The translations under genes and the position numbers were made by a program. Below, one piece after another: positions 11,931 through 41,213 of a DNA stretch of 64,000 bases. Every line of letters starts with the position of its first letter. Positions within the stretch are counted from its first letter, which is position 1. The notes beneath the pieces were generated by a model. It was not told the origin of the DNA. It did no database searches and worked only from the letters and a program-made list of their open reading frames with translations. The stretch covers positions 1,550,001 to 1,614,000 of the forward strand of contig NZ_CP092427.2 of assembly GCF_022374875.2 (NCBI RefSeq), in the 5' to 3' direction. This DNA comes from Mycolicibacterium rufum. GTDB taxonomy: Bacteria > Actinomycetota > Actinomycetes > Mycobacteriales > Mycobacteriaceae.

Positions 11931-13160
11931 ATGCGTAGCGTCCAAACGTGGCAATTACGGGCGCAATTCGCGGCCGGACTGTCGGCGATGTACGGCGCCG
12001 AGGTGCCCGCCTACCACACCCTCGTCGAGGTCAGCTCCGCGGTGAACCGTGGCGTCGTGGCCGCCGACGGCGACGCGGTACGGCTCGGGTCACTGGACAG
12101 GGTGACCGCCGAACGGCACGGCGCGATCCGCGTCGGAACCCCCGACGAGCTCGCCGCGGTCGCCGACCTGTTCTCCGCGTTCGGCATGTACCCCGTCGGC
12201 TTCTACGATCTGCGCGAGGCCGCCTCGCCCGTCCCGGTGGTCTCCACCGCGTTCCGCCCGATCGATCCGGAGGAATTGGCGCGCAACCCCTTCCGCGTCT
12301 TCACCTCGATGCTGGCCACGGCCGATCGACGGTTCTTCTCTGACGACCTGCGCGCACGGGTGACGGCCTTCCTGGCGACGCGCGAACTGTTCGACCCTGC
12401 CCTGCTCGCCACGGCACGGCGCATCGCCGCCGACGGCGGATGCCCTCGCGCCGAGGCCGACGAGTTCGTCGCCGCCGCGGTGGGAGCCTTCGCGCTGTCC
12501 CGCGAACCGGTCGACCGCGCCTGGTACGACGAGCTCTCCGCGGTCTCCTCAGTGGCCGCCGACATCGCCGGCGTGCGGTCCACCCACATCAACCACCTGA
12601 CCCCGCGGGTGCTCGACATCGACGCGCTGCAGCACGGCATGACCGCCCGCGGCATCACGATGATCGACCGCATCCAGGGCCCGCCGCGCACCGACGGCGC
12701 CCAGGTGCTGTTGCGCCAGACCTCGTTTCGGGCGCTCGCCGAACCGCGCCGGCTCCGGCTGGCCGACGGCTCCGTGGTGGACGGGACGCTGCGGGTGCGT
12801 TTCGGCGAGGTCGAGCAGCGCGGCGTGGCGCTGACGCCGGAAGGCCGGCGGCGCTACGACACGGTGATGGCCGACCCCGACCCGGCCGCGGTGTGGGATC
12901 AGCATTTCCCCAGAACCCACGCGGAACTCGCAGCCTCGGGGCTGGCCTACTACCACGGCGGCGACCCCACCAGACCCGTTGTGTACGAAGACTTCCTGCC
13001 GGCGTCGGCCGCCGGCATCTTCCGGTCCAACCTCGACAGCGACTCCCCCGCCGCCGGCGGTGACGACGACACCTCCTACAGCCAGGACTGGATGGCCGGC
13101 CGGATCGGCCATCACCTCCACGACCCGTACGACCTCTACGAGAAAGTCGCGTGCTCATGA
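11931..13160 (+). CDS. 2-oxoadipate dioxygenase/decarboxylase family protein (HglS/DUF1338-like, Rv3292 homologue)
   Basis: This 409-residue VOC-superfamily protein matches the position of M. tuberculosis Rv3292. Candidate metal ligands sit where HglS has its His-His-Glu triad: AYHTLVEV near residue 29, THINHLTPR near 220 and RFGEVEQR near 295. HglS converts 2-oxoadipate to D-2-hydroxyglutarate and CO2 using Fe(II). This fits the gene's pairing with lat and pcd, which supply 2-aminoadipate from lysine. The aminotransferase making 2-oxoadipate is not in the window. The substrate is inferred from family and context. The stop overlaps the pcd start (ATGA at 13157-13160). Confidence 0.75.
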   Translation: MRSVQTWQLRAQFAAGLSAMYGAEVPAYHTLVEVSSAVNRGVVAADGDAVRLGSLDRVTAERHGAIRVGTPDELAAVADLFSAFGMYPVGFYDLREAASPVPVVSTAFRPIDPEELARNPFRVFTSMLATADRRFFSDDLRARVTAFLATRELFDPALLATARRIAADGGCPRAEADEFVAAAVGAFALSREPVDRAWYDELSAVSSVAADIAGVRSTHINHLTPRVLDIDALQHGMTARGITMIDRIQGPPRTDGAQVLLRQTSFRALAEPRRLRLADGSVVDGTLRVRFGEVEQRGVALTPEGRRRYDTVMADPDPAAVWDQHFPRTHAELAASGLAYYHGGDPTRPVVYEDFLPASAAGIFRSNLDSDSPAAGGDDDTSYSQDWMAGRIGHHLHDPYDLYEKVACS

Positions 13161-14701
13161 CCTCCACGGTGACCTCCACCCTGCCCACCTCCGACGCGCT
13201 GCGTTCCCGTGTGCGCGACGCGCTGACCGCCGTCGGCGCAGACGTGCCGCTCGGCGATCCGAATGCCGGCGGCGTCACCGCCAGCTCGCCGATCAACGGC
13301 GACGTGCTGTTCAGCGTCGCCGAGTCCTCGCCCGAGCAGGTCGACGCGGCGATCGCCGCGGCCGCCGAGGCGTTCATCACGTGGCGCACCACCCCGGCGC
13401 CGGTGCGCGGCGCGCTGGTGGCCCGGTTGGGTCAGCTGCTGGTGGAGCACAAGGTCTCGCTGGCCGAGCTGGTGACGATCGAGGCCGGCAAGATCACCTC
13501 CGAGGCGCTGGGCGAAGTGCAGGAGATGATCGACATCTGCGAGTTCGCGGTCGGGCTCTCGCGCCAGCTGTACGGCAAGACGATCGCCTCCGAGCGACCG
13601 GGACACCGGCTGATGGAGACCTGGCATCCGCTCGGCGTGGTCGGCGTCATCACCGCGTTCAACTTCCCCGTCGCGGTGTGGGCGTGGAACACCGCGGTCG
13701 CGCTGGTGTGCGGGGACACCGTGGTGTGGAAGCCGTCGGAGCTGACCCCGCTGACCGCGGTCGCCTGCCACGCGCTGCTGGCCCGGGCATGCGCGGACGT
13801 GGGCGCGCCCGAGGGTGTCTCGCAGCTGGTGCAGGGCGGCCGCGAGGTCGGCGAGCGGCTGGTCGAGGATCCCCGCATCGCGCTGCTCTCGGCGACCGGC
13901 TCGGTGCGGATGGGCCGGCAGATCGGCCCGCGGGTGGCGCAGCGCTTCGGCAAAGCGCTGCTCGAACTCGGCGGCAACAACGCCGCGGTCGTGACGCCCT
14001 CGGCCGACCTGGATCTCGCGGTGTGCGGCATCGTGTTCTCCGCGGCAGGCACCGCAGGTCAGCGCTGCACCACGCTGCGCCGGCTGATCGTGCACTCCTC
14101 GATCGCCGACGAGCTGGTGTCGCGGATCGTGTCGGCGTATGCGCAGCTGCCGGTCGGCGACCCGTCGGCCGATGGCACGCTGGTGGGGCCGCTGATCCAC
14201 GAGACGTCCTACCGCGACATGGTCGGCGCGCTGCAGCAGGCGGCGGCCGAGGGCGGCGAGGTGATCGGCGGCGAGCGCGTGGATGTCGGTGACGAGGGCG
14301 CGTTCTACGTCCGGCCCGCGGTGGTGCGGATGCCCGCCCAGAGCGAGGTCGTGCACCTCGAGACGTTCGCGCCGATCCTCTACGTGCTGACCTACGAGAC
14401 GCTCGACGACGCTATCGCGATGAACAATGCCGTGCCGCAAGGTCTTTCGTCGGCGATCTTCACCCTCGACGTCCGCGAGGCGGAGCGGTTCCTCGCCGCC
14501 GACGGATCGGACTGCGGCATCGCCAACGTCAACATCGGCACGTCGGGAGCCGAGATCGGCGGCGCGTTCGGCGGGGAGAAAGAGACCGGCGGCGGCCGCG
14601 AGTCCGGCTCGGACGCGTGGAAGGCCTACATGCGACGTGCCACCAACACCGTCAACTACAGCGCGGAGCTCCCCCTGGCCCAGGGCGTCCACTTCGGCTG
14701 A
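13157..14701 (+). CDS. pcd: Piperideine-6-carboxylate / 2-aminoadipate semialdehyde dehydrogenase
   Basis: This 514-residue NAD(P)+-dependent aldehyde dehydrogenase oxidises the Lat product to L-2-aminoadipate. Recognisable elements are GVVGVITAFNFPVAVWAWN (cofactor loop), the general-base glutamate in ALLELGGNNAAVV, the nucleophile in TAGQRCTTLRR, and SDCGIANVNIGTSGAEIGGAFGGEKETGGG near the C-terminus, all typical of the AmaB/antiquitin (ALDH7) branch. I chose the ATG at 13157, which overlaps the upstream stop, over a GTG six bases earlier. The gene is the Rv3293 counterpart. A palindromic element follows the stop directly. Confidence 0.93.
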   Translation: MTSTVTSTLPTSDALRSRVRDALTAVGADVPLGDPNAGGVTASSPINGDVLFSVAESSPEQVDAAIAAAAEAFITWRTTPAPVRGALVARLGQLLVEHKVSLAELVTIEAGKITSEALGEVQEMIDICEFAVGLSRQLYGKTIASERPGHRLMETWHPLGVVGVITAFNFPVAVWAWNTAVALVCGDTVVWKPSELTPLTAVACHALLARACADVGAPEGVSQLVQGGREVGERLVEDPRIALLSATGSVRMGRQIGPRVAQRFGKALLELGGNNAAVVTPSADLDLAVCGIVFSAAGTAGQRCTTLRRLIVHSSIADELVSRIVSAYAQLPVGDPSADGTLVGPLIHETSYRDMVGALQQAAAEGGEVIGGERVDVGDEGAFYVRPAVVRMPAQSEVVHLETFAPILYVLTYETLDDAIAMNNAVPQGLSSAIFTLDVREAERFLAADGSDCGIANVNIGTSGAEIGGAFGGEKETGGGRESGSDAWKAYMRRATNTVNYSAELPLAQGVHFG

Positions 14702-17053: not shown

Positions 17054-18814
17054 GTGGACGTGCGAGCGCAGGTGTCGCAACTCGATGAGAAGACGCGGGA
17101 CGCCCTCGCCCGACGGATCAAGGCACGTCTTGCCGCGGCCGGTGACGACGCCGGCGAACACCACGTCGCGATCATCGGCGGCGGCGTCGCCGCACTCACC
17201 TTGGCGCTGCAGTTGCGCTCCGAGCGTCCCGGCACCCGGGTCCTCGTCATCGAGCCGACACCTCACCCGGTCGCCGAGATCACCCACACCGTCGGCGAGT
17301 CGACCGTCGAGATCTCCGCGCACTACCTGCGGGACCGGCTCGGTCTGGCCGACCACCTGCAGAACGCCCAGCTCCGCAAGATGGGTCTGCGGATGTTCTT
17401 CACCAACAACGGCAACACCGACATCGCCCAGCGCGTCGAGGTCGGCAGCAGTGCGTTCGTGCCGCAGACCACCTATCAGATCGACCGCGGCAGGCTGGAG
17501 AACGAGCTCTACCGCCGCTGCGTCGCCGATGGTGTCGCGTTCGCGACCGGCCGCGTCCGGTCGGTCGAACTCGGCGCGGAGAACGCGCCGCACCGGCTGT
17601 CGATCCAGCGCGAGGCCGACGTCACCGAGACCACCGCCCGCTGGGTCGTCGACGCGTCCGGCCGCAACCGGCTGCTGCCCCGGGAGCTGGACCTCAAGCG
17701 CGCCAACGGACACCAGTGCAGCGCCGCGTGGCTGCGCATCGCGACCGAGATCGACGTCGGCGGCTGGAGCGACGACCCGGCCTGGCATGCCCGGCTGACC
17801 GAGGGCCGGCGCGAATTCTCCACCAATCACCTGATGGGCGAAGGCTATTGGGTGTGGCTGATCCGGCTCGCCTCCGGCGCCACCAGCGTCGGCATCGTGG
17901 CCGACCCGCGCTTCCACGCCTTCGACGACTACAACACCCTGGACAAGGCGCTGACCTGGCTGCGCCGGCACGAGCCGCAGTGCGCCGCGGTGCTCGACGC
18001 GCACGCCGAGCAGATCAGGGACTTCCGGGTGATGAAGCACTACAGCCACACCGTCGACAAGGTCTACGACGGGCAGGACCGCTGGGCCCTCACCGGGGAC
18101 GCCGGGGTGTTCCTCGATCCGCTCTACTCGTCGGGGCTGGACCTGGTCGCGATCGGAAACGGCCTGGTGACCGATCTGATCACCCGCGAACTCGACGGCG
18201 CCGACGTCGTCGCCCGCGCGGCCATCGACGATTCGCTGTTCCGTTCGCTGACCGACATGTGGTGCAACATCTACCGCGACCAGTACGTGCTGATGGGGTC
18301 GCCGTCGGTGATGGCCGTGAAGGTCATCTGGGACATCGCGTTCTACTGGGGCTTCATCGGTTTTCTGTACAGCAACGATCGATTCACCCAGGTGGCCGAC
18401 GACCCCGAACTCGTGCCGTACCTGCAGGGGTTGATCGACCTGAGCAACCGCATGCAGCAGTTCCTGCGCGAATGGGCGGCCGTCGAACACGATCCGTCCC
18501 CGCCGCGCTTCGTCGACCTGTACGTGCCGCTGAACTTCATGGCGACACTGCATCATTCGATGATGGGCACCGCCACGGCAGTGCGCGAGCAGTTCGACGC
18601 CAACGCCCTGCTGCTGCGCCAGATCGCCGGCCAGGTGATCGACGAGGTGGTCACCGACAAGGCGTCCCGCTTCGCCGACGACGACGTGATGGCCCAGGCG
18701 CAGGCGTGGCAACGTGATTCGCTGTTGCGGGAACTCCGGTCGGTGTACCGCGAGCAGCAGGCCGTCGACCCGATCAGCACCGACTGGGTTCTGTGCACCG
18801 CAGCGGCACGATGA
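17054..18814 (+). CDS. Flavin-dependent halogenase-like oxidoreductase of a PKS cluster
   Basis: This 586-residue FAD enzyme is related to tryptophan/phenol halogenases. An unusual N-terminal segment (LDEKTRDALARRIKARL, residues 10-26) resembles a PKS/NRPS linker or docking helix. The FAD motif is IIGGGVAALTLAL (G42-G44, with Ala instead of the third Gly). VGESTVEISAHYL, DASGRNRLLPR and GDAGVFLDPLYSSGLDL follow the halogenase pattern. The halogenase signature W-x-W-x-I-P appears as W266-V-W-L-I-R271, so the last residue differs. It may halogenate, or hydroxylate or epoxidise, a carrier-bound product. The GTG at 17054 has GGAAAGGACG upstream, and the stop overlaps the PKS start (ATGA at 18811). 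Confidence 0.78.
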   Translation: MDVRAQVSQLDEKTRDALARRIKARLAAAGDDAGEHHVAIIGGGVAALTLALQLRSERPGTRVLVIEPTPHPVAEITHTVGESTVEISAHYLRDRLGLADHLQNAQLRKMGLRMFFTNNGNTDIAQRVEVGSSAFVPQTTYQIDRGRLENELYRRCVADGVAFATGRVRSVELGAENAPHRLSIQREADVTETTARWVVDASGRNRLLPRELDLKRANGHQCSAAWLRIATEIDVGGWSDDPAWHARLTEGRREFSTNHLMGEGYWVWLIRLASGATSVGIVADPRFHAFDDYNTLDKALTWLRRHEPQCAAVLDAHAEQIRDFRVMKHYSHTVDKVYDGQDRWALTGDAGVFLDPLYSSGLDLVAIGNGLVTDLITRELDGADVVARAAIDDSLFRSLTDMWCNIYRDQYVLMGSPSVMAVKVIWDIAFYWGFIGFLYSNDRFTQVADDPELVPYLQGLIDLSNRMQQFLREWAAVEHDPSPPRFVDLYVPLNFMATLHHSMMGTATAVREQFDANALLLRQIAGQVIDEVVTDKASRFADDDVMAQAQAWQRDSLLRELRSVYREQQAVDPISTDWVLCTAAAR

Positions 18815-21800
18815 CCGGCGCGACCGAGGAGCGCCGTGAGGCACTGGCGATCGTCGGGATCGGCTGTCGCCTCCCCGGCGGGGTCGACTCGCCGCAGGAC
18901 TACTGGCGGCTGCTGCTGAGCGAGACAGACGCCACCCGCGAGGTCCCTGAATCGCGCTGGCATGCGGCGCGTTTCCACGATCCGCATCCGGGCAAGGCCG
19001 GCAAGATGGTGACCCGCCGCGGCGGCTACCTCGAGGAGATCGACCAGTTCGACGCGGCGTTCTTCGGCATCTCGCCGCGCGAGGCGAATCTGCTCGACCC
19101 CCAGCAGCGTCTGCTCCTGCACGCCACCTGGGAGGCCCTCGAAGACGGCGGCATCCCCCCGGAGGGCCTGGCGGGCAGCGACGTCGGCGTGTTCATCGGC
19201 GGCTTCACGCTCGACTACCAGCTGCTCCAGAATCAGGGTCGGACCAGCCGCTTCCGCTTCAAGCCCCATTCCGCGACCGGGATGATGATGACGATGCTGG
19301 CGAACCGCATCTCGTTCGCGTTCGACTTCCGCGGTCCGAGCATGGCGATCGACACCGCGTGCTCCAGCTCGCTGGTCGCGGTTCACCTTGCAGCGCAGAG
19401 CATTTGGAACGGCGACTGCGAGCTCGCGCTCGCCGGCGGTGTCAACATCATCGTCGGACCCAACACCGCGATCGCCGAGTCCAAGAGCGGCTTCCTCAGC
19501 CCCGACGGCCGCTGCAAGGCGTTCGACGCCTCCGCCGACGGCTACGCCCGCGGTGAGGGCGGCGCCGTCGTCGTCATCAAACCCCTGTCGCAGGCGCTGC
19601 GCGACGGGGACCGCGTCTACGCCCAGATCCTCGGCACCGCGGTGACCCAGGACGGGCACACCGACGGCATCACCGTCCCCAGCGAGGACGCCCAGCGGGC
19701 TGCGATCACCACCGCGTTGCAACGCGCCGGCGTCGCGCCCGGCGACGTCGGCTACGTGGAGGCGCACGGCACCGGAACCCCCGTCGGTGACCCCGTCGAG
19801 ACGCGGGCCCTGGCCGGTGCGCTCGCCGCCGGCAGGTCCGCCGACGATCCGCTGCTGATCGGCTCGGTGAAGACCAACATCGGCCACCTCGAGGCCGGTG
19901 CCGGTGTCGCCGGCCTCATCAAGGCCGCACTGGCACTGCAGCACGGGACCATCCCGGCGAGCCTGCACCTGAACACGCCGAGCAGTCCGCTCGCCGAACT
20001 GCATCTCGATGTGCCGCGTACCGCACGGTCGTTCCCGGCCGGGAAGCGGCACGTCGCCGGGGTGAACTCGTTCGGGTTCGGCGGCACCAACGCCCACGTC
20101 GTGCTCGCCGAACCGCCGAGCACGCCCGCCACCCCCGGGCAGCGGGGTCAGACGGGCCTCACCCTGCTGCCGTTGTCGGCGCGCTCGGAGGAGGCGCTCA
20201 CCGCGACGGCCCAGCAGCTCGCCGAACACCTTCGCGCACAACCGGATCTGACACTGTCCGATCTGGGCTACACGCTCAGCCGGCGCCGCTCCCACCTCAG
20301 CTACCGGCGCACCCTGACCGTCGACAGCATCGACGACGCCCGCGACCAGCTCGACGCCCTGGCCGCCGGGGGCGGGCAGGCCGCCCTGGGACGGTCCGGA
20401 CCGGACACGCCGAAGCTGGCGTTCGTCTGCACCGGCATGGGTCCGCAGTGGGCGCAGATGTGCCGGGGGCTGCTCGACGTCTACCCCGAGTTCACCGCCA
20501 GCATCGAGCGCACCGACCGCGAACTCTCCCGCCACACCGACTGGTCGCTGATCGAGGAACTGCGGCGCGACGACGACACCAGCCGGATGGCCGAAACCGA
20601 GATCGCGCAGCCGGCCAACTTCGCGATCCAGATCGCGCTCGCAGAACAGTTGCGGCACTTCGGCATCGTCCCGGACGCGGTGATCGGGCACAGCGCGGGC
20701 GAGGTCGCCGCGCACCACCTCGCCGGTCTGCTCACCTTCGAACAGGCCGTCGCGGTGATCTACCACCGCAGCCGGCTGCAGCAACGCACCACCGGGCTGG
20801 GCCGCATGGTCGCCGTCGGCCTCGGCGCCGAAGCGCTGCTGCAGACCCTTGACGCCGCCAGTGCCGGGGAGTTCGGACACCGGGTGTCGGTCGCCGCGAT
20901 CAACAGCCCGCACGCCGTGACCATCGCCGGCGACGAGGACGTGCTCGCCGACATCGTGCGCCAACTCGACGAGGCGCAGGTCTTCAACCGGTACCTCGCG
21001 GTCAAGGTGCCGTACCACACCCACTACATGGACACCGTGCGAGAGGACCTCTACGCAGCGTTCGACGGCCTGTCCTCGGCCCCTGCGGCGATCCCGCTGT
21101 ACTCGACCGTCACCGGCGAGCAGCTCACCGGTTACGCCGCCGGCGCCGCCTACTGGTGGCAGAACACCCGCGCCACCGTGCTTTTCGAGGCTGCGGCGCG
21201 TCGGATGCTCGATGACGGTTACACCCACTTCGTGGAGCTCGGCCCGCATCCCGTGTTGGCCTCGTCGCTGCTGGAGATCGCCGGATCGCAGCGGGTGCTC
21301 ACGGTGGCGAGCCAGCGGCGCGGCGACGACGACGCCCGCACGCTGATGAACTGCGTGGGGACCGTGCACAGCCACGGCCACGACATCGACTGGAAGACCG
21401 TGCATCCCGCCGACGGCGGCCACCTCGTCGCGTTGCCGACCTATCCGTGGCAGTCCAAGCGCTACTGGAACGAGACACCCGAGGCGGCCGAGGATCTGCA
21501 CTACACGCCGGTGCATCCGCTGCTGGGACAACCGGTGGCGGGCGCACATCCGACGTGGGAGGTCGAACTCAGCACCGCCGTACTGCCGTTCCTCGCCGAT
21601 CATCAGGTGCAGGGCACCGTGGTGGTGCCCGGCGCCGTGTTCCTCGAGATGGCGCTGGCCGCGGCGTCGGTGACCTACGGATCGGCGTGCAGCGTCGACG
21701 ATCTCGTACTGCACCGCGCCCTGATCCTCGACGACACCTGCGACCCCGTGGTCCGCACGACCCTCGACGAGGCCAAGGGCACCCTCGAGTTCACCGCGTT

Positions 21801-24309
21801 CACCGCGATCGGTGACGGCGACTTCGGCTGGACGGTGACCGCGACCGCCGAACTCAACACCCTCGGCTCGCCACCGGCCCACGACGTCGCGACCGACGAC
21901 CAGCCCGCGGTGCACCTTCGAGGCGACGACTTCTACGCCCGCACCGCCTCGCTGGGCTTCGCCTACGGCGAGATGTTCCGCCCGGTGCGCGACGTCGGCG
22001 GCGGGGAGGACTGGGCCAGGGCGCAACTCGCGATCCCGGCCGGGATCGCCGACGACCTGGAGGACTTCCACTTCCACCCGGCGCTGATCGACGGCGCGTT
22101 CCAGACGCTGTTCGGGACGACGGCCGTCGACGCGGCCGGGGCGGGCGCGGGCACCTACCTCCCGACGCGCATCCGGCACAGCGCCGTCTACGGCAGGCCG
22201 CAGCAGGACATGTCGGTGCACGTGCGGGTCGTGTCGGCCGGCCGGGAGGAGATCGAGAGCGACATCACGATCGTCGACCGGCTCGGTGAGACCCTCGCCG
22301 TCCTGCACGGCTTCACGGTCCAGTCGCTCAGTGCGTCCTCGGCGATGTCGACCGAGCGCATCGACCGCAACCTCTACGAGGTGCACTGGACAGCGCAACC
22401 GCCGCGGGAGGACGTCGCGTCCGTCGACGCCGGGTCATGGGTGATCTTCGCCGACACGGTCGGATTCGGCGCCGCGCTGGCCCGGCAGCTGCGCGACGGC
22501 GGACACCGCGTCTGCGAGGTCATCCACCAACCGGTGGACACTCTCACCGAGGTCGACGACGGGTACGCCGTCGATCCGCAACGGGCAGAACAGATCCAGG
22601 AGCTGCTCGACGTTCTGCAGAAGCGCCACGGAAACCTCACCGGCGTCGTCGACTTCTGGCCCGTCGACATCTACGCCGGCTCCGATGACCGGCTCGGCGT
22701 CATCACACTGCTGCACGTGGTCAACGCTCTCGCCCAGCTCGAGGGCGCCAAGCCGCGCCTGCACATCGTCACCGCCAACGCGCAACCGGCGCTCGGCACC
22801 GAGGAACTGGCCGTCGACCAGGCCACCGTGTGGGGTCTGGGCCGGGTCATCGGACACCAGGAGTTCCCCGAACTGTGGGGCGGCCTGATCGACATCGACG
22901 ACACCGACGACGTGGACCTGACCGCGGCCCGACTTCGCCGTCACCTGCTCGACGTCGACGCCGAGGACCAGATCGCGCTGCGCGGCGAGCTCACGCTGGC
23001 GCCCCGGCTGCGACCGTGCGCCGCGCTGACCAAGCCGTTCCCGACCAAGCTGAGCGCCAACGCGACCTACGTCGTCACCGGCGGCACCGGAGCGCTCGGC
23101 CGCAGCGTGGCGTTCCACCTCGCCGAGCGTGGGGCGCGGCACATCACGCTGCTGAGTCGCCGGGAGATCCCTGCGCGCGCACTGTGGCCCCAGATGACGC
23201 ACGACGATCCGCATTTCGCGACCGTCGAGACGATCCGCCGGATCGAGCGCCTCGGCGCCCAGGTGCGGTGCGCGGCCGTCGACATCACCGACGCCGAGCA
23301 CGTCGAGCGCTGGCGCGACGACCACCTGCGCGACGGTCTGCCGCCGGTCCGCGGCATCGTGCATGCCGCGGGGTCGGTCGACGACCGGTTGGTGGTGAAC
23401 ATGACCGAGCAGGACTTCGCTTCGGTGATGGCGCCCAAGGTGCTCGGAACCCGGCTTCTGCACAACGCTTTCGAGAAAGCGGAGCTCGAGTTCTTCGTGA
23501 TGTTCGGGTCGGCGGGCTCGGTCATCGCCTCCCCCGGTCAGGGCAACTACGCCGCCGCCAACGCCTATCTCGACGCCTTCGCGCATTACCGCCGGGCGCG
23601 GGGGCTGCCCGCACTGACGATCGGCTGGGGTCCGTGGTCGGTCGGCATGGTCGAAGAGCTCAAGCTGGAGCGCATCTACGCCCAGCGCGGCATCGAGCTG
23701 ATCACCCCGGGCGCCGGGGTGCGGATCCTCGACCGGCTGATCGCCCAGAAGACACCGCATGTCGTCGCGATCACCGCGGACTGGGGGCGCGCCCGCCAGG
23801 CGAGCTTCAGCGCGCACCTGCCGGCGATCTTCAACGACCTCGAGGCCGGCGGCGCCGCAGCCGACGCGGGTGGCGCATCGCTCATCGACGTCCTTGCCGC
23901 CACCCCGGACGACGAACGGCTCGGCGTCGTCACCGACCACGTCCGCGACGTCGTGGCAGCAGTGTTCGACTGTGCCGCAACCGACATCGATCCCGAGGTG
24001 ATGCTCGACGACCTGGGGCTGGACTCGATGATGGCGATGGAGTTCCGGGTCCGGGTCAACAGCCTGTTCTCGATCGACCTGCCGGTGCTGGAGATCCTGC
24101 GCGGTGTCAGCGTGAACTCGCTGGCGGCCCGGATCCTGACCGAGCTGCGGGCGATCCACGCCGAGAGCGAGGCCGAGGCGGCCGGCGGGGACACCCAGAT
24201 CGACACCGCCGCGGATGCGGAGGCCGACGTCGACCGGCTGATCGCGACCCTGTCCGACGACGAATTGCGGGCCCTGCTCGACGATCTGGAAGGGACCGGC
24301 CAGTCGTGA
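18811..24309 (+). CDS. Type I polyketide synthase, KS-AT-DH-KR-ACP (6-MSAS-like single module)
   Basis: This 1832-residue single-module PKS has KS at about 10-430 (C184 in DTACSSS, VEAHGTGTPVGDP, KTNIGHLEAGAG). AT spans about 545-850 (S628 in GHSAG; VPYHTHYMD in the specificity region, neither the classic HAFH nor YASH). DH spans about 895-1180 (H931 in DHQVQGTVVVP, D1094 in HPALIDGAFQ). KR follows to about 1650 (GGTGALGRS from 1424, Y1580 in GQGNYAAANAY). ACP is at about 1700-1775 (S1739 in LGLDSMMAM). There is no ER or thioesterase. The layout is that of iterative 6-methylsalicylate-type synthases, and a polar acidic C-terminal tail (LSDDELRALLDDLE) may be a docking element. Start and stop overlap both neighbours by four bases. 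Confidence 0.92.
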   Translation: MTGATEERREALAIVGIGCRLPGGVDSPQDYWRLLLSETDATREVPESRWHAARFHDPHPGKAGKMVTRRGGYLEEIDQFDAAFFGISPREANLLDPQQRLLLHATWEALEDGGIPPEGLAGSDVGVFIGGFTLDYQLLQNQGRTSRFRFKPHSATGMMMTMLANRISFAFDFRGPSMAIDTACSSSLVAVHLAAQSIWNGDCELALAGGVNIIVGPNTAIAESKSGFLSPDGRCKAFDASADGYARGEGGAVVVIKPLSQALRDGDRVYAQILGTAVTQDGHTDGITVPSEDAQRAAITTALQRAGVAPGDVGYVEAHGTGTPVGDPVETRALAGALAAGRSADDPLLIGSVKTNIGHLEAGAGVAGLIKAALALQHGTIPASLHLNTPSSPLAELHLDVPRTARSFPAGKRHVAGVNSFGFGGTNAHVVLAEPPSTPATPGQRGQTGLTLLPLSARSEEALTATAQQLAEHLRAQPDLTLSDLGYTLSRRRSHLSYRRTLTVDSIDDARDQLDALAAGGGQAALGRSGPDTPKLAFVCTGMGPQWAQMCRGLLDVYPEFTASIERTDRELSRHTDWSLIEELRRDDDTSRMAETEIAQPANFAIQIALAEQLRHFGIVPDAVIGHSAGEVAAHHLAGLLTFEQAVAVIYHRSRLQQRTTGLGRMVAVGLGAEALLQTLDAASAGEFGHRVSVAAINSPHAVTIAGDEDVLADIVRQLDEAQVFNRYLAVKVPYHTHYMDTVREDLYAAFDGLSSAPAAIPLYSTVTGEQLTGYAAGAAYWWQNTRATVLFEAAARRMLDDGYTHFVELGPHPVLASSLLEIAGSQRVLTVASQRRGDDDARTLMNCVGTVHSHGHDIDWKTVHPADGGHLVALPTYPWQSKRYWNETPEAAEDLHYTPVHPLLGQPVAGAHPTWEVELSTAVLPFLADHQVQGTVVVPGAVFLEMALAAASVTYGSACSVDDLVLHRALILDDTCDPVVRTTLDEAKGTLEFTAFTAIGDGDFGWTVTATAELNTLGSPPAHDVATDDQPAVHLRGDDFYARTASLGFAYGEMFRPVRDVGGGEDWARAQLAIPAGIADDLEDFHFHPALIDGAFQTLFGTTAVDAAGAGAGTYLPTRIRHSAVYGRPQQDMSVHVRVVSAGREEIESDITIVDRLGETLAVLHGFTVQSLSASSAMSTERIDRNLYEVHWTAQPPREDVASVDAGSWVIFADTVGFGAALARQLRDGGHRVCEVIHQPVDTLTEVDDGYAVDPQRAEQIQELLDVLQKRHGNLTGVVDFWPVDIYAGSDDRLGVITLLHVVNALAQLEGAKPRLHIVTANAQPALGTEELAVDQATVWGLGRVIGHQEFPELWGGLIDIDDTDDVDLTAARLRRHLLDVDAEDQIALRGELTLAPRLRPCAALTKPFPTKLSANATYVVTGGTGALGRSVAFHLAERGARHITLLSRREIPARALWPQMTHDDPHFATVETIRRIERLGAQVRCAAVDITDAEHVERWRDDHLRDGLPPVRGIVHAAGSVDDRLVVNMTEQDFASVMAPKVLGTRLLHNAFEKAELEFFVMFGSAGSVIASPGQGNYAAANAYLDAFAHYRRARGLPALTIGWGPWSVGMVEELKLERIYAQRGIELITPGAGVRILDRLIAQKTPHVVAITADWGRARQASFSAHLPAIFNDLEAGGAAADAGGASLIDVLAATPDDERLGVVTDHVRDVVAAVFDCAATDIDPEVMLDDLGLDSMMAMEFRVRVNSLFSIDLPVLEILRGVSVNSLAARILTELRAIHAESEAEAAGGDTQIDTAADAEADVDRLIATLSDDELRALLDDLEGTGQS

Positions 24310-25157
24310 CGGCGGCCGATGCGGCCCCGGCCGTCCAGGTCCGCGGACTGAGCAAGTCCTATGGCCGGCTGACCGCCGTGCGCGACGTCGACCTGGACGT
24401 CGCGTACGGCGAGATCGTCGCGATCCTCGGCCCCAACGGCGCCGGGAAGTCCACCACCATCGAGATTCTCGAAGGCCACCGCACGCGTGACGCGGGTCAG
24501 GTGCGGGTGCTCGGCGAGGACCCCGGCACCGCGGACCGGCAGTGGCGGGCCAGGATCGGCATCGTGCTGCAGGACGCCAGCGACTTCGGGGTGCTCACCG
24601 TCGCCGAGACGGTCCGGATGTTCCGGCGGTGCTACGGGCAGGCGCGCGACCCCGACGACGTGCTCGACCTGGTCGGGCTCACCTCGACCGCGGACTCGCG
24701 GGTGCGGACCCTCTCGGGCGGGCAGCGCCGCCGGCTCGACGTCGCGCTCGGCATCATCGCCGACCCCGAACTGCTCTTCATGGACGAACCCACCACCGGT
24801 TTCGACCCCGAGGCGCGGCGCCAATTCTGGGATCTGATCCGGGTTCTCGCCGCCGACGGCACCACCATCGTGCTCACCACCCACTACCTGGAGGAGGCCG
24901 CCACGCTGGCCGACCGCGTCGCGGTGATCGCCGACGGCCGCGTCGTCGCCGTCGACACCCCCGCCCGGCTGACCGCCCAGGCGCACTCGGTCGCCACGGT
25001 CCGGTGGACGGAGCACGGCGAGATCCGCGTCATCGAGACCGACCGGCCGACCGAGTTCATCCGGGCACGCTCGGCGCACGGCGCCGAGATGGCCGATCTG
25101 ACCGTCACCCGGCCGACGCTCGAAGACGCGTACCTGTCGCTGATCGGGGAGCAGTGA
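24306..25157 (+). CDS. ABC transporter ATP-binding protein (DrrA-like exporter)
   Basis: This 283-residue nucleotide-binding protein has Walker A GPNGAGKST near residue 43, signature LSGGQRRRLDVALG, Walker B LLFMDEPTTGFDP and the H-loop TTHYLEEA. The C-terminal extension of about 60 residues is typical of DrrA-type drug-export ATPases. It pairs with the membrane protein directly downstream, and together they probably export the polyketide product or protect the cell from it. The GTG start lies inside the PKS stop (GTGA at 24306-24309). Confidence 0.93.
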   Translation: MTAADAAPAVQVRGLSKSYGRLTAVRDVDLDVAYGEIVAILGPNGAGKSTTIEILEGHRTRDAGQVRVLGEDPGTADRQWRARIGIVLQDASDFGVLTVAETVRMFRRCYGQARDPDDVLDLVGLTSTADSRVRTLSGGQRRRLDVALGIIADPELLFMDEPTTGFDPEARRQFWDLIRVLAADGTTIVLTTHYLEEAATLADRVAVIADGRVVAVDTPARLTAQAHSVATVRWTEHGEIRVIETDRPTEFIRARSAHGAEMADLTVTRPTLEDAYLSLIGEQ

Positions 25158-26008
25158 TGGCGACCAAGCGCATCGACCGGCCGGCCCGCGCCCGGCACAG
25201 CGCACCCAACCCGGCGCTGCCGTCGGCGCTGCGCATCGGAATGTCGCGCATCGTTCCGGAACTGAAGATGTTCTACCGGCGCCCCGAGCAGGTGGTGCTG
25301 ACGTTCTCGATGCCCGCGATCATCTGCCTGCTGCTCGGGTCGATCTTCTCGGCCGCGGTGCCGGGCAGCGACGTCAGCACCGGGGCGGTGATCGCGGCGA
25401 GCATGCTCGCCTACGGCATCCTGTCCACGTCGTTCATCAACCTCGGGATCAGCGTCGCCGCCGACCGCGAGACCGGCGCGCTGCGGCGGCTGCGCGGCAC
25501 CCCGGCGACCGCGACGTCGTACTTCGTCGGCAAGATCGCGCTGGTCGCCATCGCCAGCCTCGCCGAGGCGATCATCCTGATCCTGGTCGGGGTGTTCGTG
25601 TTCGGTCTGCGGCTGCCGACCGGCCTGGCCGAATGGTGGACGCTGGGCTGGGTTTTCGCTCTCGGCATCACGAGTTGCTCGCTGCTGGGGCTGCTGGTGA
25701 GCAACGTCGCCAACAACGCGGTGTCGGCCGCGGTGCTGACCAACGGCCCCGCCGTCGGACTGCAGTTCGTCTCGGGCACCTATGTGCCGCTGATGATGCT
25801 GCCCGCATGGATGCTCGTCATCGGGTCGCTGTTCCCGGTGAAATGGATGGCCCAGGGGTTCCGGTCGGTGCTGCTGCCGCCGCAGATGGTCGCCGCCGAA
25901 CCGGCGGGCAGCTGGGAACACGGGCGGATCTTCCTGGTGCTCGCCGCGTGGACCGTCGTCGGTCTGCTGGCCTGTCTGCGGGCGTTCCGCTGGTCGGAGC
26001 AGCGCTGA
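25157..26008 (+). CDS. ABC-2 type transporter permease (DrrB-like)
   Basis: This 283-residue protein has six hydrophobic segments in the ABC-2 pattern. A basic N-terminal head is followed by FSMPAIICLLLGSIF, then the cytosolic motif ADRETGALRRLRGTPATATSYFVGK typical of DrrB permeases, and LQFVSGTYVPLMMLPAWM late in the protein. It should form a homodimeric export channel with the preceding ATPase. The ATG overlaps the ATPase stop by one base (TGATG). One base separates its stop from the antiporter ATG. Confidence 0.9.
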   Translation: MATKRIDRPARARHSAPNPALPSALRIGMSRIVPELKMFYRRPEQVVLTFSMPAIICLLLGSIFSAAVPGSDVSTGAVIAASMLAYGILSTSFINLGISVAADRETGALRRLRGTPATATSYFVGKIALVAIASLAEAIILILVGVFVFGLRLPTGLAEWWTLGWVFALGITSCSLLGLLVSNVANNAVSAAVLTNGPAVGLQFVSGTYVPLMMLPAWMLVIGSLFPVKWMAQGFRSVLLPPQMVAAEPAGSWEHGRIFLVLAAWTVVGLLACLRAFRWSEQR

Positions 26009-26009
26009 C

Positions 26010-27353
26010 ATGCCGCCACTGCTGACCATCACCTACCACTTCTTCCTGCAGATCGTCGTGATCCTGGCGACCTACCGGCTGCTGTGGCCGCTGTTCCGCC
26101 GCCTCGGCCAGGTACAGGTGGTCGCCATCATGGTCGCCGGATTCCTGCTCGGCCCTTCGGTTCTCGGCTGGCTGTGGCCGCAGGCCCAGCACTGGCTGTT
26201 CCCGACGAAGCTGACCATCGGCGCCGAGACCATCACCCACCCGAACCTGGTCGCCATCTACGTCGTCGGCCAACTCGGGCTGGTGCTGTACATGTTCCTG
26301 GTCGGTTCGTCGTTCAAGCTCGACATCCTCGGTGCGCACACCCGCCAGGCCGGCGCGACGTCGGCCGCGGGCATCGGTGTGCCGCTGGTCCTGGGCGGCG
26401 TCCTGGGCTGGTGGATGGTCGACTCCGGCGGCTACTTCACCGACAAGGTCGCGCACTGGCAGGGCGGGCTGTTCGTGGCCGCAGCGGTGGCGATCACCGC
26501 CTTCCCGATGCTGGCGTGGATCGTCTACGACTCCGGGTTGCTCAACACCCGGCTCGGCACGATGTCGCTGTCGTGCGCCGCGGTCGACGACGCCTGCTCG
26601 TGGGTGCTGCTGGCCACCGTGGTGGCGACGGCGAAGGGCAGCCTGCTCGGCGCCGTCGTGGCCGTCGGCGGGGGTCTGCTCTACCTGCTGTTCATGGTGT
26701 ACCTCGGCCGGCCGCTGCTGGCGCGCCTCGAAACGTGGACCCCGCGCAGCGCCGACACCGAACGCACCGGCGGCCTGCCGATCGCGCAACTGAGCATCAT
26801 CCTGCTGGTCGTGCTGACCGCGAGCTGGTTCACCGACCTGGTCGGGATCTACTCGGTGTTCGGCGCGTTCGTGGCCGGGCTGGTGATGCCGCGCGGCGCG
26901 CTGCTGGACGCGGTCCGCGACCGGTTCGAACCGCTGACCGCCTACCTGCTGCTGCCGGGCTTCTTCATCTACTCGGGCCTGAACACCCAACTGACGCTGA
27001 TCCTGGACGGCTCCACGCTGGTGATGGCCGCCGTCGTGCTGGTGGTGTCGTTCGCCGCGAAATTCGGCGCCGTCGGGCTGGCGGCCCGCTGGCAGGGCAT
27101 GAGCTGGTACGAGGCCGGCTCGATGGGGGCGCTCGCCAACGCCCGCGGTCTGATGGAGCTGATCCTGCTCAACATCGGCCTGGAGGCCGGCCTGATCTCG
27201 GGCAAGCTGTACACGATCCTCGCCGTGATGACGATCATCACCACGTTCGTCGCGACACCGCTGCAGCGGCTCTTCGAGCGCCGCCTGCGACGCACCGGGG
27301 CGCGGTTCGGCCCCAGCGGTCTGCAACCGGACCGGGAGGCGTCGCAAGCGTAG
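26010..27353 (+). CDS. Cation:proton antiporter, CPA2/Kef type
   Basis: This 447-residue membrane protein has about 12-13 helices. It carries CPA2 features: LGPSVLGWLWP early, a membrane-embedded acidic pair in CAAVDDACSWVLLA (the ion-binding DD), VFGAFVAGLVMPR, and FFIYSGLNTQ. It lacks the cytosolic TrkA-N domain of full Kef channels. The gene sits one base after the ABC permease and so is part of the same operon. Its role there could be proton-driven efflux of the metabolite or ion balance during export; this is inference, as CPA2 proteins normally move Na+ or K+ against H+. Confidence 0.88.
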   Translation: MPPLLTITYHFFLQIVVILATYRLLWPLFRRLGQVQVVAIMVAGFLLGPSVLGWLWPQAQHWLFPTKLTIGAETITHPNLVAIYVVGQLGLVLYMFLVGSSFKLDILGAHTRQAGATSAAGIGVPLVLGGVLGWWMVDSGGYFTDKVAHWQGGLFVAAAVAITAFPMLAWIVYDSGLLNTRLGTMSLSCAAVDDACSWVLLATVVATAKGSLLGAVVAVGGGLLYLLFMVYLGRPLLARLETWTPRSADTERTGGLPIAQLSIILLVVLTASWFTDLVGIYSVFGAFVAGLVMPRGALLDAVRDRFEPLTAYLLLPGFFIYSGLNTQLTLILDGSTLVMAAVVLVVSFAAKFGAVGLAARWQGMSWYEAGSMGALANARGLMELILLNIGLEAGLISGKLYTILAVMTIITTFVATPLQRLFERRLRRTGARFGPSGLQPDREASQA

Positions 27354-27403
27354 GCGGCGAGCCTGCCGTCGACGGCTGTGCGACATGTGTCAGTATCGAT
27401 TTC

Positions 27404-28054
27404 ATGTCGGGACCACGCCGGCGCCTGTCCCCCGACGCGCGCCGCACCGAATTGCTCGCACTCGGCGCGGAGGTGTTCGGCCAGCGGCCCTATGACGAGG
27501 TCCGCATCGACGAGATCGCTGAGCGGGCAGGCGTTTCCCGTGCCTTGATGTACCACTACTTCCCGGACAAGCGCGCCTTCTTCGCCGCCGTCGTACGCGC
27601 CGAGGGCGAGCGTCTGTTCGAGGCGACGAACACGGCACCCCTGCCGGGGCAGACGCTGTTCGGGCAGGTGCGCGCCGGGGTGCTGGCCTATCTGCGCTAC
27701 GACGAGGAGTATCCGCACCGCGCGTGGGCCGCCTCGACGGGTATCGGCCGCACCGACCCGGTGCTGCGCGGCATCGAGGACTCCGACAACGACCGGCAGG
27801 CCGACCGCATCCTCGGCCGGATGACCGCGTTCGTGGGCGAACCGATGGACGAGAAGGTCGAGCGAGACCTGCGGGCGACGGTCTACGGGTGGCTGGCGTT
27901 CACGTTCGAGATGTGCCGGCAGCGATTGATGGACCCGTCACTGGACGTCGACTTCATCGCCGACCTCTGCGCGCACACGCTGATGGACGGCGTCGGACGG
28001 GTGCCGGGCATTCCTGCGGTGCTCGCCGACGCGGTCACCGCGCCGCAGCGCTGA
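27404..28054 (+). CDS. TetR family regulator of the PKS cluster
   Basis: This 216-residue protein has a TetR HTH at residues 9-55 (RRTELLALGAEVFGQRPYDEVRIDEIAERAGVSRALMYHYFPDKRAFF) and a ligand domain with YDEEYPHRAWAAST. It follows the antiporter by 50 bases on the same strand, so it can be co-transcribed with the cluster and is the natural candidate for feedback control by its product. A weak dyad (TG-N2-ACATGT-N2-CA, 27379-27392) lies before its ATG but is not convincing as an operator. Confidence 0.88.
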   Translation: MSGPRRRLSPDARRTELLALGAEVFGQRPYDEVRIDEIAERAGVSRALMYHYFPDKRAFFAAVVRAEGERLFEATNTAPLPGQTLFGQVRAGVLAYLRYDEEYPHRAWAASTGIGRTDPVLRGIEDSDNDRQADRILGRMTAFVGEPMDEKVERDLRATVYGWLAFTFEMCRQRLMDPSLDVDFIADLCAHTLMDGVGRVPGIPAVLADAVTAPQR

Positions 28055-36683: not shown

Positions 36684-39600
36684 GTGTCCCTGACCACCGA
36701 TCCGCTCTCCCGCTTCAGCGCGTTGACGCGCGAGTGGTTCGCGGGCACCTTCGTCGAACCCACTCCGGCGCAGGCCCAGGCATGGAACGCCATCGCCGAC
36801 GGCGACAACACGCTGGTCATCGCACCCACCGGGTCCGGCAAGACGCTCGCGGCCTTCCTGTGGGCGATCGACGGGCTGGCCAGGTCGCCGTCGTCGGAGC
36901 CCACCACGCGGGTGCTGTACGTGTCCCCGCTCAAGGCGCTCGCCGTCGACGTCGAGCGCAACCTGCGCACGCCACTGACCGGGATCTCCCGCATCGCCGA
37001 GCGCGGCGGTCAGGAGCCGCCGAAGATCAGCGTCGGAGTCCGCTCCGGAGACACCACGCCCGCCAAACGCCGGGAGCTGATCACCAAACCGCCCGACATC
37101 CTGATCACCACGCCCGAGTCGCTGTTCCTGATGCTGACCTCCGCCGCCCGCGAGACGCTGGCCGGGGTGCAGACGGTCATCGTCGACGAGGTGCACGCCG
37201 TGGCGGGCACCAAGCGCGGCGCGCATCTGGCCGTGTCCCTGGAGCGGCTCGACGCGATGCTCGAGAAGCCCGCGCAGCGCATCGGGCTGTCGGCCACGGT
37301 GCGTCCGCCCGAAGAGGTGGCCCGCTTCCTGTCCGGCGCCGCGCCCACCACCATCGTGGCGCCGCCCGCGGCGAAGACGTTCGACCTGACCGTTCAGGTG
37401 CCGGTGCCCGACATGGCGAACCTGGAGAACAACTCGATCTGGCCCGATGTGGAGGAGCGCATCGTCGACCTCATCGAGGCGCACAACAGCTCGATCGTGT
37501 TCACCAACTCGCGGCGGCTGGCCGAACGCCTGACCGCGCGGCTCAACGAGATCCACGCCGAGCGCAACGGCATCGAACTCGGCGGGCCCAACCCCGGCGT
37601 GGCCGGCGGTGCGCCCGCCCACCTGATGGGCAGCGGGCAGTCCTACGGCGCCGAGCCGCTGCTGGCCCGGGCACACCACGGCTCGGTCAGCAAGGAGGCA
37701 CGCGCCGACGTCGAGGACGCCCTCAAGAGCGGGCGGCTCAAGGCGGTCGTGGCGACGTCGAGTCTGGAACTCGGCATCGACATGGGCGCGGTCGATCTGG
37801 TGATCCAGGTGGAGACACCGCCGTCGGTGGCCAGCGGGCTGCAGCGCATCGGCCGGGCGGGCCACCAGGTCGGTGAGATCAGCCAGGGCGTGCTGTTCCC
37901 CAAGCACCGCACCGACCTGATCGGATGCGCGGTCAGCGTGCAGCGGATGCTGGGCGGTCAGATCGAGACGATGCGGGTGCCCGCCAATCCGCTCGACGTG
38001 CTGGCCCAACACACCGTCGCAGCGTGCGCGCTGGAACCCATCAACGCCGAGTCCTGGTTCGACACCGTGCGGCGCAGCGCACCCTTCGCGACGCTGCCGC
38101 GCAGCGCCTTCGAGGCGACGCTGGACCTGCTCTCCGGGAAGTACCCGTCGACCGAGTTCGCCGAACTGCGGCCACGCATCGTGTACGACCGCGACGCCGG
38201 CACGCTCACCGCGCGGCCCGGCGCCCAGCGGCTCGCGGTCACCTCCGGCGGCGCGATCCCCGACCGCGGGCTGTTCACCGTCTTCCTCGCCTCCAGCGCG
38301 GACTCCGAGAAGCCTTCCCGGGTCGGCGAACTCGACGAGGAAATGGTCTACGAGTCCCGCCCGGGCGACGTCATCTCCCTCGGCGCGACCAGCTGGCGGA
38401 TCACCGAGATCACCCACGACCGGGTGCTGGTCATCCCCGCCCCCGGCGAACCGGCGCGGCTGCCGTTCTGGCGCGGCGACGGTGTCGGTCGGCCCGCCGA
38501 GCTGGGCGCGGCGATCGGCGCGTTCAACGGCGAGCTGGCCCGCCTCGACCGCGACGCCTTCGAGAAACGCTGTCAGAGCGTGGGATTCGACACGTTCGCG
38601 ATCGACAACCTGTGGCAGCTGATCGACGAGCAGCGCACCGCGACGACCGCGGTACCGTCCGACACCACGCTGGTGGTCGAGCGGTTCCGGGACGAGTTGG
38701 GTGACTGGCGGATCATCCTGCACTCCCCCTACGGCCTGCGGGTGCACGGCCCGCTGGCGCTCGCGGTGGGCAGGCGGCTCTACGAGCGGTTCGGCATCGA
38801 CGAGAAGCCGACCGCCTCCGACGACGGCATCATCGTGCGGTTACCCGACACCGACGACACCGCCCCGGGCGCCGACATCTTCGTCTTCGACCCGGACGAG
38901 ATCGAGCCGCTGGTGACCACCGAGGTCAGCTCGTCGGCGCTGTTCGCCTCGCGGTTCCGGGAGTGCGCCGCCCGGGCCCTGCTGCTGCCGCGCCGTCATC
39001 CGGGTAAGCGTTCCCCGCTGTGGCATCAGCGCCAGCGCGCGGCGCAACTGCTCGACGTGGCCCGCAACTACCCGGACTTCCCTGTCGTCCTCGAGGCCGT
39101 CCGGGAATGCCTGCAGGACGTCTACGACGTGCCGATGCTCACCGACCTGATGGCGCGCATCGCCCAGCGCCGGGTTCGGCTGCTCGAGGTCGAGACGCCG
39201 ACACCCTCGCCGTTCGCGGCGTCTCTGCTGTTCGGCTACGTCGGCGCGTTCATGTACGAAGGCGACAGCCCGCTGGCCGAACGGCGCGCCGCCGCACTGG
39301 CCTTGGACCCGACGCTGCTGGCCGAGCTGCTGGGACGGGTCGAACTGCGCGAACTGCTCGACGCCGACGTGGTGGCCAACACCACGCGTCAGCTGCAGCA
39401 CCTGACGCCCGAGCGAACGGTCCGCGACGCCGAAGGGGTGGCCGACCTGCTGCGCATGCTCGGTCCGCTGACGGTCGAGGAGATCGCGGTGCGCTGCACG
39501 GTCGAGGATGTCGGCGGGTGGCTCGAGGGCCTGCTGACGGCCAAACGGATCGTGAGCGTGTCCTACGCCGGACAGACCTGGTGGGCCAGCGTCGAGGACA

Positions 39601-41213
39601 TCGGGCGGCTGCGCGACGGCGTCGGGGTCGCGGTGCCGGTCGGCGTGCCAATCGCGTTCCTCGAGCCCGTCGTTGATCCGCTGGGCGAACTGCTGTCCCG
39701 CTACGCCCGCACGCGGGGCCCGTTCACGACCGCGGAGGCCGCGTCGCGGTTCGGGTTGGGGGTGCGGGTGGCGGCCGACGTGCTGGGCCGGCTGGCCGCC
39801 GACGGCAAATTGGTGCGCGGCGAATTCACCGATGCGCCTGCCGATTCCGGTGACCAGTGGTGCGACGCCGAGGTGTTGCGCATCCTGCGACGGCGCTCGC
39901 TGGCGGCATTGCGCGCGCAGATCGAGCCGGTCAGCACCGCGGCGCTCGGGCGCTTCCTGCCGGCCTGGCAACAACTGGGTGGCGACACGGTGTCGGGGGT
40001 CGACGGTCTGGCATCGGTGATCGACCAGCTGGCGGGCGTGCCGATGCCGGCGTCGGCGATCGAGCCGCTGATCTTCGGGCAGCGGGTGCGTGATTATCAG
40101 CCCGGCATGCTCGACGAGCTGCTCGCCTCCGGCGAGGTGCTGTGGTCGGGGGCCGGCGCGCTGTCATCGGCCGACGGCTGGGTCGCCTTCCACCCCGCCG
40201 ACACCGCGCCGCTCTCGCTCGCCCCGCACGGTGAACTCGACCTCACCGACACCCATCACACGATCCTCGGCGCGTTGAGTGGCGGCGGGGCGTACTTCTT
40301 CCGCCAGCTCGCGGTCGACGGTGTCAGCACCGAGGCCCTCAAAGAGGCTCTGTGGCAGCTGATCTGGGCCGGATACGTCGGCGGTGACACGTTCGCGCCC
40401 GTGCGCGCGCTGTTGGCGGGCACCCGCGGTTCCGGCACCCGGCGCGCGGCGGCCCCCTCGCACCGGCACCGTCGGGCGCCGCGGCTGAGCCGCTACAGCA
40501 TCAGCACCGCCGGTCTCGGCGCGCACCGCGACACCGATCCCACGGTGGCGGGGCGCTGGGCCGCACTGCCGACGGCCGAGGTCGACACCACCGTGCGGGC
40601 GTCGTATCAGGCCGACCAGCTGCTGGCCCGGCACGGCGTGCTCACCAAAGGTGCGGTGGCCGCGGAGAACATCGCCGGCGGGTTCGCGTCGATGTACAAG
40701 GTGCTGACCTCGATGGAGGAGGCGGGGCGTTGTCAGCGCGGCTATTTCGTCGAATCGCTGGGCGGCGCCCAGTTCGCGACCGCCAGCACGGTCGACCGGT
40801 TGCGCAGCCACGCCGACAGCATCGACGACAAGCAGCAGAATCTGCGTGCGATCGCGCTGGCCGCCACCGATCCGGCCAATCCGTTCGGGGCGGCGCTGCC
40901 CTGGCCGGCCCAGGGCGAGGCCGCGCACCGGCCGGGCCGCAAGGCGGGCGCGCTGGTGGTGCTCGTCGACGGGGAGCTGGCGTGGTTCGTCGAACGCGGG
41001 GGCCGGTCGTTGCTCAGCTTCACCGAGGACGCCGAGGTGCACAACGCCGCGGCGGCCGCGCTCGCGGAACTGGTGACCCGCCAACGTGTTCCCGCGCTTC
41101 TGGTCGAGCGGATCGACGGCGTTCCGGTGCTCGAGAGTAAAGACTCGCTGGTGGCCGAGGCGCTGGTGCACGCGGGCTTCTCCCGGACACCGCGCGGTCT
41201 GCGGCTGCGCTGA
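36684..41213 (+). CDS. lhr: Large ATP-dependent helicase Lhr
   Basis: This 1509-residue superfamily 2 helicase is close to the family length of about 1510 in mycobacteria. The helicase core occupies the first 850 residues: motif [13 protein letters not shown], motif II VDEVHAV, motif [17 protein letters not shown], and motif [12 protein letters not shown] winged helix and the Lhr beta-barrel follow, then the long Lhr-specific C-terminal region (DUF4921/HTH_42-like) seen in full-length Lhr. It is a 3'-5' ssDNA translocase implicated in DNA repair and induced by mitomycin C. The GTG start is at 36684. Its stop overlaps the nei2 start (TGATG), supporting a repair operon. Confidence 0.96.

Follow-up and report, generated by a model that had tools for sequence, protein, structure and literature searches.

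A compact mycobacterial gene unit joining a halogenase-like enzyme, a polyketide synthase and an exporter to one of two exclusive antiporters

What does a mycobacterium make with a single-module polyketide synthase (PKS) that is packed together with a halogenase-like gene, an exporter and an ion antiporter? Mycobacteria are noted for their envelope lipids and hardly for small secreted polyketides. Here we analysed such a locus in Mycolicibacterium rufum, within a stretch of 64,000 nucleotides (the window; C1:1550001-1614000 of the 6.1 Mb genome). The compact five-gene set is present in many environmental mycobacteria, and the antiporter is an obligate part of it, of one of two mutually exclusive kinds. 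We give a probability of roughly 0.6 to the reading that this is an orphan, self-contained unit for an exported, unsaturated and probably halogenated polyketide, with the antiporter serving self-protection or providing export energy. The five genes are as follows (ABC, ATP-binding cassette):

17054..18814, + strand: Hal, a flavin-dependent-halogenase-like enzyme of 586 amino acids (Pfam PF04820/PF05834, motifs and predicted fold)
18811..24309, + strand: single-module type I PKS of 1832 amino acids, with ketosynthase (KS), acyltransferase (AT), dehydratase (DH), ketoreductase (KR) and acyl carrier protein (ACP) domains in that order (Pfam; catalytic residues)
24306..25157, + strand: DrrA-type ABC ATPase (Pfam; TIGR01188 at 235.5 bits, below the cut-off of 312.45)
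25157..26008, + strand: DrrB-type ABC-2 permease (Pfam; DrrB-family models at 48-49 bits, below cut-off)
26010..27353, + strand: CPA2 cation:proton antiporter, type A, 447 amino acids, with Asp193-Asp194 and no regulatory domain (PF00999)

The five-gene unit and its antiporter

The genes overlap or nearly touch. Hal starts with GTG at 17054 and ends with TGA at 18814, overlapping the PKS ATG at 18811 (ATGA); the PKS ends at 24309, past the DrrA GTG at 24306 (GTGA); the DrrA stop and the DrrB ATG share base 25157 (TGATG, from 25155); and DrrB ends at 26008, one base (26009) before the antiporter ATG at 26010, the antiporter gene ending at 27353. All of these junctions, as set out in a preliminary description of the locus, are present in the sequence to the exact base.

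To find relatives we scanned one genome per species with Hal; the best 80 of 111 relatives lie in 79 loci, 63 of which are of mycobacterial type. (One candidate scan scored 8000 and took the best 120 of them.) Of the named relatives among these best 80, M. chubuense DSM 44219 and M. chlorophenolicum stand nearest, with Hal 94% identical. One of the 63 loci (L039) is a scaffold of a metagenome-assembled genome labelled Ilumatobacteraceae that carries the mycobacterial-type cluster and is probably misbinned. Hal, PKS, DrrA and DrrB occur together in 58 of the 63 loci and the other five (L054, L058, L064, L065 and L092) stop at a contig end, so the co-occurrence is not due to chance, and the earlier view of a compact, complete biosynthesis-plus-export unit is borne out. 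When genes of the 63 loci were clustered into families (simple gene caller, 45% identity), five families were present in 44 to 61 loci, and these are the five of the unit. No sixth family was found in more than 7 loci; the unit therefore stands alone, at varied genomic sites.

In a sample of 148 Mycobacterium genomes, Hal has a match in 44. Identity is at least 65% in 42 of these; the other two (G064 and G113, 26-27% identity) were left out of the count of Hal genomes. At E <= 1e-40, Hal matches were found in 7 of 201 genomes of a family sample and 17 of 394 of a class sample, both of which overlap with the genus sample. A plasmid search returned two distant records only.

The fifth gene follows a strict rule. 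Its product matches PF00999 at 168.8 bits, above cut-off, and TIGR00932 at 118.1 bits, below the cut-off of 238.3; the Na_H_Exchanger domain and the conserved Asp pair are those of a CPA2 antiporter. PF00999 is the only match in its 447 residues, and the lack of a C-terminal KTN/TrkA-N regulatory domain sets it apart from the glutathione-gated Kef antiporters. One CPA2 antiporter is present in 60 of the 63 mycobacterial-type loci, and none has both types. Type A, in 23 loci and the window, adjoins DrrB. Type B, in 37 loci, lies beyond Hal at the other end of the unit; the matches are 16 to 375 bases apart in 36 of these loci and 2400 bases apart in L086, and in 6 of the 37 the gene is on the opposite strand. 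Three loci have no antiporter. L081 and L085 begin at, or at most 60 bases from, a (partial) Hal match, so that any type B gene would have been lost; L092 stops 90 bases past its Hal match, which would likewise have removed a type A gene. Mean identity is 84% within type A, 76% within type B and 44% between the two, which form two clades in a tree of 24 of the 63 antiporters that has very long branches on some outgroup rows (the type A alignment and tree sets include the actinomycete loci L084 and L091). The Asp193-Asp194 pair is present in 26 of 26 type A sequences and its second Asp in 37 of 37 of type B. In 11 of the 37 type B proteins A, S, T or G stands in place of the first Asp, which may mean a different ion stoichiometry.

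Searching the 148 genomes with both proteins (E <= 1e-60) found type A at 83% identity or more in 15 and type B at 73% or more in 27, without overlap; together these are exactly the 42 Hal genomes. The other 106 have neither, apart from two matches at 39-42% (G063 and G079) that were left out of the type B count. Fisher's test of antiporter against Hal gives 6e-38, a value that measures only the tightness of the association because the sampled genomes are related. On a quick tree of 56 cluster PKSs, built from the first 900 residues (KS-AT), the A/B label changes 7 times, 3 of them forced by starred branches; judged from these sequences, the antiporter types have been exchanged at least three times along the PKS tree.

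Could the antiporter be an unrelated housekeeping neighbour? Such proteins are common (PF00999 matches 8 times in this genome, counting a fragment and the antiporter of the unit itself), but when 6 other PF00999 loci of the genome were scanned, phmmer with A and B recognised a single one, at 23.9 bits. Exactly one of the two kinds is present in 42 of 42 Hal genomes and neither in the 106 others, a pattern that contradicts chance neighbourhood, and the two kinds differ in position and sometimes in strand. We regard this explanation as highly improbable. That every unit has one of two antiporters suggests instead that the producer needs one to tolerate its own product.

Around the unit in this genome are pcd (L-piperidine-6-carboxylate dehydrogenase; 13151-14701, 813.8 bits, above cut-off) and a large ATP-dependent helicase of the PRK09751 family (36684-41213, 1758.6 bits, above cut-off), which we take to be lhr. 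Placement between pcd and lhr, as first described, thus holds here and fails as a general site of the unit. The GC content of the cluster is 0.66-0.72 in 1-kb steps, similar to that of the flanks, so composition gives no sign of recent transfer. Downstream is one further gene:

27404..28054, + strand: TetR-family regulator of 216 amino acids, counted from the ATG of MSGPRRRL

The regulator does follow the five genes, as reported, but tblastn at E <= 1e-10 found a TetR gene next to the five genes in just three loci, those of the window, L029 and L076, and it is therefore placed outside the conserved unit.

The polyketide synthase lineage

Pfam agrees with the preliminary description that a single protein carries KS-AT-DH-KR-ACP (residues 11-387, 538-853, 902-1176, 1418-1610 and 1710-1775) without enoylreductase (ER) or thioesterase (TE), families for which it gave no match; no thioesterase was found elsewhere in the unit. 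The domains, from Pfam and alignment, are:

18841..20112, + strand: KS, about amino acids 11-434, with Cys184, His319 and His359
20422..21369, + strand: AT, with GHSAGE and YHTH motifs
21514..22338, + strand: DH, with His931 and Asp1094
23062..23640, + strand: KR, with Asp1525 and Tyr1580
23938..24135, + strand: ACP, with Ser1739

The active-site residues checked are invariant in all 58 mycobacterial-type sequences, window included; of further DH motif residues, a glycine varies in 3 and a proline in 1.

The domain order was the basis for an initial assignment to the synthases of 6-methylsalicylic acid (6-MSAS) or orsellinate type, which would make a small aromatic acid for Hal to halogenate. 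Fungal 6-MSAS and mycobacterial 6-MSAS-like enzymes have the same KS-AT-DH-KR-ACP order without ER or TE, as presumably do ChlB1, AziB and NcsB, which we take to be bacterial iterative aromatic PKSs, and several of the solved halogenases nearest to Hal act, we believe, on aromatic substrates. The KS domains do not follow this likeness. We built a tree of 61 KS domains. Of the 58 mycobacterial-type PKSs, that of the window among them, 8 were entered, together with relatives from actinomycetes (3) and planctomycetes (3) and 8 of the genome's own PKS proteins; the comparators were 8 of 20 loci from a search with fungal 6-MSAS plus 5 6-MSAS and 8 other proteins of 120; the label ownPks12 in this tree was given from length and two KSs, and ownPks13 and ownMAS were confirmed afterwards. 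The cluster KSs share a clade (support 100/100) with KSs from one Pseudonocardiaceae strain and from two other actinomycetes. This clade stands weakly beside five KSs (87/58), four of which have Gln at the cysteine position; the cluster KS keeps its cysteine. In approximately unbiased (AU) tests, a topology that unites the 11 cluster-type KSs in a single clade with 9 others (5 fungal 6-MSAS, 4 mycobacterial 6-MSAS-like) was rejected (p = 0.000185), as was one that unites them with a wider set of the 5 fungal and 7 bacterial 6-MSAS-like KSs (p = 0.00158); L161, which stood elsewhere in the tree, was kept outside these groups. All 58 orthologues have DTACS as their KS active-site motif, where the 6-MSAS-type KSs, 5 of them fungal and 4 mycobacterial, have DAACA.

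Other mycobacteria do have 6-MSAS-like enzymes, as a protein distinct from the cluster PKS. A search with fungal 6-MSAS matched 21 of 394 genomes at E <= 1e-200, and 12 mycobacterial PKSs (L146-L157) are 43-45% identical to it over ~1740 residues, with DAACAAS in the four that were read; among the matches listed, this genome has one, to a PKS other than that of the cluster (36%). The analysis thereby places the 6-MSAS-like enzymes within the genus, and it corrects the initial assignment. PDB entries 8i4y and 7wvz were dropped as proxies for 6-MSAS, being linked to a CalA3 paper in the accessible part of their record. Elsewhere in this genome, C1:60000-99000 (L166, L167) holds five type I PKS genes in tandem on the minus strand (KS matches at 65766, 71153, 76552, 81180 and 88496); the two that were scanned reached no curated family cut-off.

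The other candidate origin is an envelope lipid PKS, in which case the product would be a (methyl-branched) cell-wall lipid and Hal a lipid oxidase. DrrABC is an envelope-lipid exporter in mycobacteria. The KS again disagrees: joining the cluster KS with the genome's KS of mycocerosic acid synthase (MAS)/Pks2 type and two others that group with the latter was rejected, more weakly (p = 0.0167), for a group that was picked after viewing the tree and contains one confirmed MAS/Pks2-type KS (its protein identified at 3558.5 bits, above cut-off). The mycobacterial lipid PKSs have an ER, for which there is no match here. The YHTH/GHSAGE signature of the AT is unlike that of modular ATs that we take to be methylmalonyl-specific and suggests, as far as a motif can, a non-methylmalonyl extender. 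As no further gene family recurs beside the unit, there is also no constant lipid-transfer or ligase partner. The preliminary description had likewise separated this enzyme from the methyl-branched lipid PKSs.

Some comparisons point in the opposite direction. Mycocerosic acid synthase is the best PDB match of the entire PKS (833 bits) and supplies the best match of its DH (94.4 bits), and a mycobacterial 6-MSAS-like PKS aligns with it end to end (blastp, 34.5% over 1824 amino acids, 736 bits), the best score outside the cluster clade among the proteins compared. Weighing these scores with the KS tests, motifs and domain content, we consider a 6-MSAS-like synthase unlikely and a lipid PKS somewhat more unlikely still; an aromatic product is conceivable but has lost its main support.

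Hal and its likely chemistry

Flavin-dependent halogenases are characterized by a GxGxxG/A flavin motif, WxWxI and Fx.Px.Sx.G (PMC12871659). Hal has G42/G44/A47 (position 47 being A or G among relatives), W266/W268/I270 and F353/P356/S359/G361, and these residues are conserved in more than 97% of 62 mycobacterial-type and more than 90% of 16 outgroup sequences. WxWxI and Lys109 are invariant, and F..P..S.G and the glycines of the flavin motif are invariant or nearly so. In alignments, Lys109 falls on the K of the KxG of PltA and ChlB4, and it is presumably the counterpart of PrnA Lys79. In a VIA-align table over Foldseek's best 1000 chains, 16 of the 17 top rows by Z are halogenases, giving the predicted model the fold of flavin-dependent halogenases. 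Matches to the NCBIfam QhpG and CmlS models are far below cut-off (70.7 against 900 bits for CmlS, NF033113), and Hal is not a member of the latter family. Motifs and modelled fold together indicate a halogenase-like enzyme that probably halogenates the product. A hydroxylase or epoxidase, yielding an oxidized and not a halogenated compound, is a real but lesser possibility, against which stand the conserved motifs and lysine and the halogenases at the head of the fold table.

One further feature of Hal is its N terminus:

17084..17137, + strand: N-terminal helix of Hal, about residues 11-28 (homologue comparison; helix 12-28 in the predicted model, part of it at low confidence)

The helix is present in the actinobacterial homologues that were read and missing in deltaproteobacterial and planctomycete ones, and is a possible docking helix. 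Charge-complementary docking between the N terminus of Hal and the C terminus of the PKS was also considered. The PKS tail is acidic (net -5 to -11) in the 12 sequences that were properly cut (mis-cut rows L045 and L054 were left out), but the Hal stretch has almost no net charge and the motif used missed the majority of PKS tails, so we claim no docking pair.

Proposed product and known systems

We postulate the following course. The PKS would very likely act iteratively with malonyl units; since KR and DH are intact and ER is absent, iterative use is expected to leave an unsaturated chain (polyene-like or partly reduced) on the ACP. Hal would then chlorinate or brominate this chain, perhaps while still ACP-bound, and DrrA and DrrB would carry the product out. 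The CPA2 antiporter may maintain pH or ion balance and so shield the cell from what it makes, which might be a protonophore, ionophore or electrophile, or it may power export.

More tentatively, the units could encode a family of secreted, halogenated polyene-type compounds of these kinds that disturb proton or cation balance, with the antiporter as immunity. Immunity would explain why one of the two types is always kept and why they have repeatedly replaced each other. If so, the combination of antiporter, halogenase and PKS, seen also in other actinomycetes and a betaproteobacterium, would be a general and as yet unnamed form of producer self-protection. The occurrence of the unit in 42 of 148 genomes, the intact catalytic residues of 58 PKSs and the two interchangeable antiporters offer a tractable route to a new mycobacterial compound class, and an antiporter swap would make the question of ion antiporters in antibiotic clusters directly testable.

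The types of part are known. To our knowledge, neither their combination nor the separate KS lineage nor the one-of-two antiporter rule has been described; titles and abstract starts in the open part of the PubMed Central literature yielded no description of the mycobacterial cluster.

The closest arrangements outside mycobacteria are five actinomycete loci (L084, L091, L093, L126 and L127) from Pseudonocardiaceae, Lentzea, Nocardia and two further actinomycetes. They share Hal at 50-56% identity, the PKS at 47-49% in the three loci where it was seen, and the antiporter at 73-76% in three (one a 147-residue piece) and at 55% and 34% in the others. They differ from the mycobacterial unit in having two or three Hal copies each, DUF1702 genes in four of the five and no DrrAB match. 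A profile of types A and B recognises an antiporter at 8 of the 13 Hal loci from actinomycetes other than mycobacteria (11 genomes; L125/L126 counted as one), at the one Janthinobacterium locus and at none of 13 deltaproteobacterial, planctomycete and other loci or the one cyanobacterial locus. The Janthinobacterium locus (L199), on a J. lividum plasmid, clusters genes for a phosphopantetheinyl transferase, a cation:proton antiporter and Hal (42%), with an Asp/Asn hydroxylase domain protein, an alpha/beta hydrolase and a large type I PKS nearby. At the actinomycete locus L129, genes for a Hal relative (39%) and for a CPA2 antiporter (38%) lie close to one that is KS-like, in surroundings that by eye resemble a type II PKS cluster. 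In the planctomycete loci L103, L104 and L106, a PKS of ~2640-2690 amino acids, with a second KS that has serine in place of its cysteine, is followed by two tandem Hal genes; in L103 it is preceded by an AMP-ligase with a carrier domain.

DUF1702 genes stand beside the iterative PKS of the enediyne cassette (PMC7692728), and also beside four of the non-mycobacterial relatives, where they hint at polyene chemistry. Of 8 loci, 3 have a DUF1702 pair next to a PKS and 1 has a lone DUF1702 gene there; the PKSs in these four loci are 28.8-29.7% identical to the cluster PKS. With such identities, and no DUF1702 match in this genome, membership of the mycobacterial unit in the enediyne group was rejected. 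The halogenases FasV and ForV of fasamycin and formicamycin belong to another type of aromatic polyketide pathway, and Hal is 20% identical to FasV. The chloramphenicol cluster of Streptomyces venezuelae is a parallel in which an FAD halogenase is likewise paired with a cation:proton antiporter: it encodes the halogenase cmlS and the Na+/H+ antiporter cmlN (PMC4249514), starts from an amino acid with an enzyme resembling a nonribosomal peptide synthetase and uses a major facilitator superfamily pump, in contrast to the PKS and Drr pair here. In a heterologous host, production fell by more than 60% when cmlN was deleted, and CmlN was suggested by the authors to be an energy source for the efflux pump (PMC4249514).

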